Positions 23,620-63,622 of a DNA stretch of 64,000 bases are shown in pieces (position 1 is the first letter of the stretch; each line of letters starts with the position of its first letter). Below the pieces are notes generated by a model. The model saw nothing but the letters and a program-made list of their open reading frames with translations. It ran no database searches and was not told the DNA's origin. Source of the stretch: an endosymbiont of Galathealinum brachiosum (GTDB lineage Bacteria; Pseudomonadota; Gammaproteobacteria; SZUA-229); NCBI GenBank assembly GCA_003349885.1, contig QFXC01000013.1:372001-436000 (forward strand), written 5' to 3'. Made by a program: the position numbers and the translations under genes.

Positions 23620-24855
23620 TTAAAAGTTCCCCTGGAACCAGTTTTTCATTCGTCCCCATACGCCTTTCATGCCCCCTTCTGTTGAGAAATATTGAGTACC
23701 GCTACTTTGATGTTGCTCACCAAATAACAACAGGCCTACACCCGTTGCATGGATTGGATTTGAAACCACATCAGCTAAACCACTAACATACTGTGGCGAT
23801 CCGAGTCGTACTGGCATGTGGAATATTTCTTCCGCCAAATCCACAACACCTTCCATTTTTGAACTGCCGCCAGTCATAACAATACCCGCAGCAATAATAT
23901 CTTCAAATCCGCTTTTTCTTAACTCAGCCTGCACCAGACTAAGTAATTCATCATAACGAGGCTCAACCACTTCGGCTAAAGTCTGGCGTGATAATTTACG
24001 TGCTGGTCTGTCACCCACACTGGGCACTTCAATGGTTTCATCCGCATTAGCCAACTGGCGTAAAGCGCATGCATATTTAATTTTTATTTCATCTGCATAT
24101 TTAGTCGGTGTACGTAAAGCAACAGCAATATCATTTGTTACCTGATCACCTGCTATTGGTATCACTGCAGTATGTTTTATTGCGCCTTCTGAAAACACAG
24201 CAATATCCGTTGTACCACCGCCGATATCAACCAGACAAACACCTAACTCTTTTTCATCTTCTGTTAATACAGAATAACTGGAAGCAAGTTGCTCTAAAAT
24301 AATATCGTCAACTTCAAGCCCGCATCGCCTTACACATTTAATAATATTTTGAGCCGCACCAACCGCACCTGTCACAAGATGCACTTTAGCTTCTAAGCGA
24401 ACACCAGACATACCAATAGGTTCACGTATACCTTCCTGCTCATCTATAATAAATTCCTGTGGAAGAATATGAAGAATGCGCTGATCTGCAGGAATAGCGA
24501 CGGCTCTCGCTGCATCAATAACACGATCTAAATCCATCTCACTTACTTCACGATCTTTTATCGCAACAATACCGTGAGAATTTATACTTTTTATATGGCT
24601 ACCAGCTATACCAGCGTAAACCGAGTTGATTTGACAACCAGCCATTAATTCAGCTTCTTCAACCGCTCGTTGAATAGATTGCACTGTAGATTCGATATTA
24701 ACTACAACACCTTTCTTCAAACCTCTAGACGGATGCGAACCCAGACCTATAATCTCAACATCACCTTCAGGTGTTATTTCGCCTACTATTGCAACGACCT
24801 TAGAAGTACCAATATCCAGCCCAACAATTAAATTTTTATCTGTTTTTTTTGTCAT
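23620..24855 (-). CDS. ftsA: FtsA, actin-like Z-ring membrane tether
   Basis: Tethers FtsZ to the membrane and recruits later division proteins. 411 residues. The actin-fold phosphate loops are VGLDIGTSKV near the N-terminus and VDIGGGTTDIAVF near 207, with the adenosine motif GIVMTGGSSKMEG. The C-terminal amphipathic membrane-targeting helix is visible as GVWGRMKNWFQGNF. RBS AGGA precedes the ATG. It starts 5 bp after ftsQ. Confidence 0.98.
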   Translation of the reverse strand: MTKKTDKNLIVGLDIGTSKVVAIVGEITPEGDVEIIGLGSHPSRGLKKGVVVNIESTVQSIQRAVEEAELMAGCQINSVYAGIAGSHIKSINSHGIVAIKDREVSEMDLDRVIDAARAVAIPADQRILHILPQEFIIDEQEGIREPIGMSGVRLEAKVHLVTGAVGAAQNIIKCVRRCGLEVDDIILEQLASSYSVLTEDEKELGVCLVDIGGGTTDIAVFSEGAIKHTAVIPIAGDQVTNDIAVALRTPTKYADEIKIKYACALRQLANADETIEVPSVGDRPARKLSRQTLAEVVEPRYDELLSLVQAELRKSGFEDIIAAGIVMTGGSSKMEGVVDLAEEIFHMPVRLGSPQYVSGLADVVSNPIHATGVGLLLFGEQHQSSGTQYFSTEGGMKGVWGRMKNWFQGNF

Positions 24856-41242: not shown

Positions 41243-41253
41243 AGCGGAAACTA

Positions 41254-41622
41254 GGGAAGCTGGCCTATAAGCCGGGTTCTGTACAACCGAAGTTGTGACA
41301 ATCATTCATCTAGGACGCACATCGCTATGCGCCTCAAGCAACCTACCCAGAAGCAGCGCGGGCCACGCCTCAGCTTCTCTATTTGGTCTTGCTCCAGGTG
41401 GGGTTTACCTAGCCGCCACTGTTACCAGTAAACGCGGTGCGCTCTTACCGCACCATTTCACCCTTACCCCAAAATACTAAATTAGCAAATTAAGGCGGTA
41501 TCTTTCTGCTGCACTAGCCGTAGGTTCTTACACCCCCCAGGCGTTACCTGGCACCCTGCCCTTTGGAGCCCGGACTTTCCTCTCTACGATAAAATCATAC
41601 AGCGATTGTCCAGCCAACTTCG
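41254..41622 (-). ncRNA. rnpB: RNase P RNA (bacterial type A)
   Basis: Catalytic RNA that trims tRNA 5' leaders. On the minus strand it starts GAAGTTGGCTGGACAATCGC and shows the conserved blocks GAGGAAAGTCCGGGCTCC, GGGTGCCAGGTAACGCCTGG, AGTGCAGCAGAAAGATACCG, GGTAAGGGTGAAATGGTGCG and GGTAAACCCCACCTGGAGCA. It ends ACAGAACCCGGCTTATAGGC followed by CAGCTTCCC, which pairs with the 5' end to form P1. About 369 nt, normal size. Ends are placed from the P1 helix and the promoter and may be off by a few bases. Location between mraZ and rsmI is as in pseudomonads. Confidence 0.97.
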
Positions 41623-52529: not shown

Positions 52530-53162
52530 TTAGAGATGCATTTCTCTTTCAGTTTCAGTAAGACTTAACTGAAATGCTTCACGCTCAAAAATACGCTGCG
52601 CATAATCGGTTACCGCTTTTGCTTCATCTGGTAACTCAATACCCATAACAGATAAACGCCATAACAAAGGTGCTATGGTTGCATCAACCAGACTATAATC
52701 TTCGCTAAGGAAAAAAGGTAATACCTTAAATAACTCATTCGATGAAATAATACTTTCACGTAACATCTTACGTGCTTTAGCAGCCGTTTTTTCACCTTTA
52801 GTTAAAATATCATGCATCAATGGGAACCAGTCTTTTTCAACTCGATGCAACGCTAAACGTGTTTTTGCACGAGATACTGGATCAACCGGCATTAATGGTG
52901 GATGCGGAAAACGCTCATCTAAATATTCAACAATTACACGTGAATCATAAAGCACTAAATCACGATCAATCAGTGTTGGCACTGTATTGTATGGGTTGAG
53001 TTCAGACAGGTCTTCAGGTGGATTGCTTAAATCAACATCAATAGCTTCAAAAGTAATATCTTTTTCTGCAAGTACAATACGTGCCAGATGACAGTATGGA
53101 CATGATGGAGATGTAAATAGATTCATTACTGATCTACGATTGGCGAGTGCATTAGACGCCAT
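52530..53162 (-). CDS. sspA: SspA, stringent starvation protein A (GST fold)
   Basis: RNA-polymerase-associated GST-like protein. 210 residues: a thioredoxin-like N-terminal domain, NTVPTLIDRDLVLYDSRVI, the surface motif LDERFPHPPLMPVDP that contacts polymerase in homologues, and a helical C-terminal domain. Unlike E. coli SspA, the first loop carries CPYC (residues 21-24), a glutaredoxin-like active site. Whether it is redox active is unknown. Upstream of sspB; next to petC across an inverted heptad array. Confidence 0.94.
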   Translation of the reverse strand: MASNALANRRSVMNLFTSPSCPYCHLARIVLAEKDITFEAIDVDLSNPPEDLSELNPYNTVPTLIDRDLVLYDSRVIVEYLDERFPHPPLMPVDPVSRAKTRLALHRVEKDWFPLMHDILTKGEKTAAKARKMLRESIISSNELFKVLPFFLSEDYSLVDATIAPLLWRLSVMGIELPDEAKAVTDYAQRIFEREAFQLSLTETEREMHL

Positions 53163-53183: not shown

Positions 53184-53288
53184 AAGTCAAAAGTCAAAAG
53201 TCAGAAGTCGCAAGTCACAGGAAAAAGGCAAAAGCAGCAATGCTGCCCCGCTTTTGACTTATGACTTACGACTTACGATTTACGACTA
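53184..53288. repeat. Inverted heptad array, copy 1 (3' of petC)
   Basis: Five 7-bp units of type AAGTCAA (53184-53218) face five units of type ATGACTT/ACGACTT (53254-53288), enclosing a 35-bp centre with palindrome GCAGCAATGCTGC. The array ends 4 bp from the petC stop. Could fold into one large hairpin and may act as terminator between petC and sspA. Confidence 0.85.
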
Positions 53289-53292
53289 TTTT

Positions 53293-54060
53293 TTAGTGAA
53301 CGTCTTTCCAGTATTCTTTCTTCAGCATGTAAGCCACAATTGCGAAGATGAACAGGAAGATTAAAACCTTGATACCAAGACTTCTACGCTCTAGCTGCAT
53401 TGGCTCACCCATGTAAACCATGAAGTTAACCAGATCACCAACATAAGCATCATATTCTTCAACAGACATAGTACCCGCTTGCACTATTTCCATTTTCTCA
53501 AATATATGTTTATCGTTGCCGTCTTCGCCTTTCTCTGTTTTGAAAATAGCTTTCTGCAAACCCTGCTTTTCCCATAACACGTGAGGCATACCAACATCAG
53601 CAAACGCCAGATTATTCATACCGGTAGGACGTGAATCATCCAGATAGAAAGTACGCAGATAGGTGTACAACCAGTCACCACCTTTAGCACGTGCAATTAC
53701 TGTAAGACCAGGAATTTTTGTACCAAAAGCGACACTTGCATAGTCATTGTTCATCGCTATCTTCATTAACTCACCCACTTTGGTTTTTTCGCCATCGGCA
53801 CCACGTGTGTTAATTAATTTTTCAGATACTTCAACATCTGTCCAGCCAAGGTCACGACCAATGCGGTTATAACGCATGTAATCTGCTGCGTGGCAGCTTA
53901 AGCAGTTATCTGCAAAAGCCTGTGCACCACGTTTTAGAGATTCTGTATCCGTTAAGTCACCCGGTGCATGATCTAAATGAACACTGCCACCAGCTGCCAT
54001 AACTAAACCTGAAAGCCCCATAGATATAGACAGTAGGATTACGCTTAGTAAATTTCTCAT
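53293..54060 (-). CDS. petC: Cytochrome c1 (bc1 complex)
   Basis: Haem c subunit that passes electrons from the Rieske protein to soluble cytochrome c. 255 residues: signal peptide (about 1-22), haem site CLSCHAADYMRYNRIG near 52, a downstream Met ligand region around FADVGMPHVLW, and a C-terminal transmembrane anchor (about 229-246) ending KKEYWKDVH. 4-bp overlap with petB. Confidence 0.96.
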   Translation of the reverse strand: MRNLLSVILLSISMGLSGLVMAAGGSVHLDHAPGDLTDTESLKRGAQAFADNCLSCHAADYMRYNRIGRDLGWTDVEVSEKLINTRGADGEKTKVGELMKIAMNNDYASVAFGTKIPGLTVIARAKGGDWLYTYLRTFYLDDSRPTGMNNLAFADVGMPHVLWEKQGLQKAIFKTEKGEDGNDKHIFEKMEIVQAGTMSVEEYDAYVGDLVNFMVYMGEPMQLERRSLGIKVLIFLFIFAIVAYMLKKEYWKDVH

Positions 54061-62259: not shown

Positions 62260-62358
62260 AAGTCGTAAGTCATAGGCTGTAAGTTATTAAGTCAAAAGCA
62301 ACTCCCCGCAGGTGAGTCAACTTTGGACTTATGACTTAAGACTATAAACTTAAGACTA
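62260..62358. repeat. Inverted heptad array, copy 2 (3' of murA)
   Basis: AAGTCGT, AAGTCAT, AGGCTGT, AAGTTAT and AAGTCAA (62260-62295) face TGGACTT, ATGACTT, AAGACTA, TAAACTT and AAGACTA (62324-62358). Same layout as the array after petC, again 4 bp from the stop codon. Confidence 0.8.
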
Positions 62359-62362
62359 TGTT

Positions 62363-63622
<1,260 letters not shown>

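Follow-up and report, generated by a model that had tools for sequence, protein, structure and literature searches.

Results

Inverted heptad arrays behind petC and murA

We analysed a 64,000-nucleotide stretch of contig QFXC01000013.1 (assembly GCA_003349885.1), hereafter called the window, in which two inverted heptad arrays lie directly behind stop codons. The first is located between petC (53293..54060, minus strand), which encodes cytochrome c1 (PF02167) and has its stop codon at 53293-53295, and a downstream gene for a GST-fold, sspA-like protein (52530..53162, minus strand). The petC-side arm (53256..53288, minus strand) consists of five units, reads (NNGACTT)x5 on the forward strand and has an outer unit TAGTC 4 bp behind the petC stop codon. 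It is separated by a 39-bp hairpin core (53217..53255, minus strand) from the far arm (53184..53216, plus strand), which is (AAGTCNN)x5, inverted relative to the petC-side arm and 21 bp from the sspA-like start. Within the core, 53249-53231 on the minus strand is terminator-like in the petC sense, with an 8-bp stem and a T-rich tail.

The second array follows a gene of the EPSP-synthase family (PF00275) that we call murA (62363..63622, minus strand; stop codon 62363-62365) and precedes hisG (PF01634; 61588..62220, minus strand). Its murA-side arm (62326..62358, minus strand) has five units, some of them degenerate, again with an outer unit TAGTC 4 bp behind the stop codon. This arm faces a far arm of five units with one extra base (62260..62293, plus strand) around a 32-bp core (62294..62325, minus strand), in which our scan found no terminator-like site. 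An Rfam search gave no family at either element; the only match in the window was a bacterial class A RNase P RNA (41252-41621, minus strand).

To examine whether these arrays exceed chance, we searched the 3.77-Mb genome (14 contigs; G000). The paired pattern occurs 12 times per strand against 0 for the reversed control, and GACTTNNGACTT occurs 76 times against 10, which corresponds to about 30 sites. A second heptad variant in this genome, TTAGTCA/GTTAGTC, forms an array on contig C13 (positions 2509-2569 of the fetched locus L137). In a sample of 370 gammaproteobacterial genomes, the strict paired form is confined to this family (2 genomes).

Anatomy of the AAGTC family

In four congeneric genomes (G000, G002, G003 and G004) the unit is AAGTC-D-T, with frequencies of A.91 A.98 G.99 T.98 C.98, then a free position (G.55 A.23 T.19), then T.86. 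In the fetched loci, which were chosen because they hold arrays, 378 AAGTC pairs are 7 bp apart against 0-2 at 5, 6, 8 and 9 bp. Arms have 4-5 units as a rule (five in 40 of 82 arms) but range from 3 to 11, and the outer unit is often TAGTC preceded by A-rich DNA. The core is typically 30-48 bp, often AAAGCGG plus a short GC-rich hairpin whose stem differs from copy to copy (GCGCC/GGCGC, CAGGC/GCCTG, CTCCC/GGGAG). The RNA of ten elements folds far better than shuffled sequences (z -4.9 to -10.3; z -4.9 for both window copies). The free positions of the two arms are not complementary beyond chance (0.489 versus 0.522 +- 0.024) and the arms of one element are not positively correlated in length (r = -0.28), so the arms evolve separately.

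Arms are placed at gene ends

The sequence-only reading had held that both arrays have five units against five, end exactly 4 bp from the stop codon and look like a mobile or processing element that targets gene ends. We performed a stop-distance census in the four congeneric genomes. Of 84 arms whose outer side faces a stop codon, 72 lie between -25 and +12 bp of it (19/22 in G000, 6/7 in G002, 27/31 in G003 and 20/24 in G004). Thirty are at +3..+5, six use the TAG of TAGTC as the stop codon, and twenty end at a TAA inside the array; the 4-bp distance is therefore the modal class and not a law, and five units are typical but not fixed. Random placement of the same elements in their own gaps would put 9.6 of 58 within 12 bp, whereas 48 are found there. 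Orthologous copies are not independent, so the effective number is smaller, but G000 alone shows the effect. Arms facing a start codon show no such focus, and a single TAGTC was not clearly enriched as a general post-stop motif in array-free genes.

We followed twenty-five gene ends into G002, G003, G004 and a further congener, G001 (isolate OB6). Arrays are usually found at the same stop codon with different unit numbers and cores, which supports unit turnover by slippage. G001, which has no hit to the PF05635 family described below, carries only degenerate or altered 7-bp repeats, for example TAGCCAT (AAACCAT)3. At one gene end (locus L141, ilvD-like) an intrinsic terminator is shared by the five species and the heptads sit between stop codon and terminator. 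In other genera the petC gap has a plain hairpin instead.

Heptad arms flank genes of the IVP family

A pattern scan found the same arrays in a 62%-GC viral contig, and a BLAST search with that array hit Nostoc plasmids, whereas a BLAST search of the array against phage records gave no match and Trichormus variabilis plasmid A (1-50 kb) had no arrays. In Nostoc sp. ATCC 53789, AAGTCGC arms flank a gene annotated as a four helix bundle protein; on plasmid pNsp_b of this strain (locus L310), a GACTTGC array of about 38 units (24559-24822) lies on one side of an IVP gene. AAGTC arms likewise flank genes of PF05635 (23S rRNA intervening-sequence protein, IVP/S23) in G000, G003, G004 and the relative G008. 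The copy in G000 (contig C11:737008-737238; loci L135/L322) is degenerate, and a run of N lies inside the GACTT array beside it (L135 3480-3640). The copy in G004 is also degenerate, while G003 has two longer copies without internal stops.

To test the association in general, we collected 49 IVP loci from seven phyla and viral contigs, comprising relatives, viral contigs, and plasmids of Treponema, Bernardetia, Riemerella, Monoglobus, Gemmatirosa, Chlorohelix and cyanobacteria. A period-7 array (at least 16 of 21 matches) lies beside the gene in 36 loci and on both sides in 23, against 9 and 0 of 461 control ORFs. At this threshold 13 of the 49 loci have no period-7 array; period 8 was found in 5 loci (among the period-8 loci are L338, L351 and L358), and other periods in 0-1. 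The two flanks match better inverted than direct in 38 against 7. Heptads differ between loci (AAGTCGT, AAAAGTG, AACGTTC, AATTCGT, CTGTTGG, AAAAGCT and others) and follow IVP similarity (Mantel r 0.27, 0/2000); above 50% identity, half or more of the pairs share at least 6 of 7 bases. This correlation is, however, also expected from joint inheritance without recognition. In 11 of 13 annotated tandem plasmid cases, two of which were judged by eye (one being a period-8 array), the upstream array begins at or over the stop codon of the preceding gene, including cas6, cas10, methylase and helicase genes. In cyanobacterial plasmids (L354, L357, L358 and L360) IVP genes sit between cas genes (cas6/cas4, cas10/cmr3, cas2/cas1), so the apparent CRISPR association of IVP may reflect insertion.

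Heptad type of hairpin copies and occupancy of the murA-hisG gap

If the hairpin copies derive from IVP elements, their heptad should match that of the resident IVP. The relatives G005, G017 and G022 have IVPs with AGTGAA arms, and they have 6, 3 and 2 strict AGTGAA hairpin elements, respectively, and no AAGTC ones. Conversely, G000, G003, G004 and G008, with AAGTC-type IVPs, have AAGTC elements and no AGTGAA ones; G001, G006, G009 and G011 have no AGTGAA ones either. The match is not complete, as G019 has an AGTGAA-type IVP but no strict AGTGAA hairpin copies, and G006, G018 and G023 have AAGTC copies without a PF05635 hit. The AGTGAA copies also sit at stop codons.

The murA-hisG gap was found in three states. 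It is short and empty in G006, G008 and G018, holds the miniature AAGTC element in the window, and holds a complete AGTGAA-armed IVP element in G005, G017, G019 and G022. The complete element was read out in full in G017 and G022, where the arm starts 2-3 bp behind the murA stop codon. Two different IVP types thus used the same stop codon, which is hard to explain without insertion.

Discussion

Interpretation as miniature copies of IVS-like mobile elements

We consider it likely that the two arrays are IVP-less (miniature, non-autonomous) copies of a family of IVS-like mobile elements. Complete and miniature elements mostly start at, or within a few bp of, the upstream stop codon, and in miniature copies a short hairpin core, sometimes a clear terminator, stands in place of the IVP gene. 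The sequence-only reading is supported with respect to the gene-end rule, the symmetry and period kept while units vary, and the mobile element, although mobility is inferred from comparative sites and not observed. Vertical inheritance since the genus ancestor is common, so recent movement is not shown. No target-site duplication or clean junction was seen, but intergenic DNA at orthologous sites is too diverged for duplications to be read; moreover, the analysis relied on MAG assemblies and on ORFs called by length and codon bias.

We infer from the RNA folds and from published RNase III excision of the related rRNA intervening sequence (PMC4990558) that the arms pair in RNA into a long interrupted stem that is cut by RNase III or serves as a 3' end, so that insertion directly after a stop codon would cost the host little. 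We further propose that the IVP protein recognises its heptads in DNA or RNA and helps copies spread, while unit number drifts by replication slippage. IVP proteins resemble Avd of diversity-generating retroelements (PMC10053308), which makes nucleic-acid binding plausible.

Of the alternatives, host-owned transcription terminators whose flanks have grown heptads by replication slippage deserve the most attention, although we regard them as unlikely. In this view the hairpin core is the functional part, and the arms are side products filling the space between stop codon and terminator. In agreement with it, a strong intrinsic terminator is shared by several species including G001 at the L141 and L142 gene ends, where only the heptad number between stop and terminator varies, the petC core contains a terminator-like hairpin, and other genera have a plain hairpin terminator behind petC. 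However, the same heptad recurs at dozens of unlinked sites, which local slippage cannot give, six of seven positions are kept while one is free, arms recur inverted around IVP genes in many phyla, and murA-hisG gaps without arrays exist. Somewhat less likely still, pre-existing heptad arrays of another origin and role could be landing sites into which the IVP gene or its element inserts. Arrays without IVP are indeed far commoner than IVP genes in these genomes, and some genomes have arrays but no IVP. Yet at murA-hisG the AGTGAA arms are found with AGTGAA-type IVPs while the empty gaps in three other genera have no heptads, the heptad type follows IVP identity across genomes, and arms lie within about 100 bp on both sides of the gene.

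We regard two further possibilities as very unlikely. Bidirectional Rho-loading sites would account for the UC that is conserved at 98% with period 7 and for the sense orientation of arms after stops, and inverted arms would give the same site to both directions. But the unit has more G than C, its AAG part need not be conserved for Rho, other IVP arms (AGTGAAA, AATTCGT, AAAAGCT) do not share this feature, and the IVP association stays unexplained. A REP/BIME-like palindrome mobilised by a RAYT (Y1 transposase) would fit dispersed palindromes at gene 3' ends, and RAYT genes occur in the genus: at the orthologue of the L141 5993 locus in G004 and G002 (loci L167 and L185; G004:C2, G002:C66), the gap holds a REP-like hairpin, GTAGGTGCGAATTCATTCGCAC, next to a RAYT-like (Y1_Tnp) gene, a separate mobile family. 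The distribution of PF01797 nevertheless does not track the arrays, as G006 and G008 have arrays and no RAYT, whereas G005, G009, G011 and G012 have RAYT and no AAGTC arrays, and the partner gene found between arms is IVP.

Relation to known systems

Four-helix-bundle IVP proteins are widespread and have solved structures but no known function, and heptanucleotide STRR arrays have been known since 1990 without an origin. Finding the two together in at least seven phyla, with a stop-codon placement rule and matching heptad types, offers both a possible common explanation. We found no report of IVP genes flanked by heptad arrays, although a prior description cannot be excluded because most subscription papers and preprints lay outside our search. 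It is possible, but remains tentative, that stand-alone IVP genes across bacteria define a previously undescribed class of small mobile elements with inverted heptad-array ends that insert at stop codons and leave miniature copies. In this reading cyanobacterial STRRs, Beggiatoaceae TAACTGA repeats and rRNA intervening sequences would be members or relics of the one class, and the IVP protein its heptad-recognising mobility factor. Intervening sequences would then be the rRNA branch of a broad mobile class that reshapes gene 3' ends and also sits inside cas and restriction operons.

Cyanobacterial STRRs are likewise intergenic, hairpin-forming 7-bp repeats, at least one of which is near a gene 3' end and a suspected terminator (PMC2670836), and the AAGTC heptad itself occurs on a Nostoc plasmid around an IVP gene. 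They have not been described as ends of an IVP element, and the stop-codon rule was not reported in the papers that we read. The TAACTGA heptamer repeats of Beggiatoaceae, cyanobacteria and Bacteroidetes also form arrays in intergenic DNA, and the arms of the IVP locus L311 (CAGTTAT) are the same heptamer in reverse complement; a TAACTGA-type inverted heptad pair without IVP is also present on a Nostoc plasmid (L310 48340-48445). TAACTGA arrays were, however, reported mostly just upstream of start codons and as direct, not inverted, sets (PMC4679880). STRRs and TAACTGA repeats look like, and may be, the same kind of repeat as the arrays described here.

REP/BIME elements are also short, palindromic, dispersed and non-autonomous at gene 3' ends, but the elements described here have heptad-array arms, no RAYT link and IVP as the partner gene. 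Some cores resemble intrinsic terminators in having a hairpin plus T-tract in the sense of the upstream gene, but many lack a good T-tract, and the surrounding inverted heptad arms are not part of a terminator. The 23S rRNA intervening sequences with an S23/IVP ORF (Coxiella, Leptospira, Brucella) share the protein family PF05635, a size of a few hundred bp and terminal inverted repeats that can pair in RNA; in Coxiella, 2-3 tandem heptamers with strain-variable number also precede the S23 ORF (PMC4990558). The elements described here differ in that they are located at stop codons of protein genes instead of inside rRNA, in that their arms are long degenerate heptad arrays, and in that many copies per genome lack the ORF, the window copies having only a 32-39 bp core. 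The element appears to work like an rRNA intervening sequence placed behind a stop codon, but it is not an rRNA intervening sequence.
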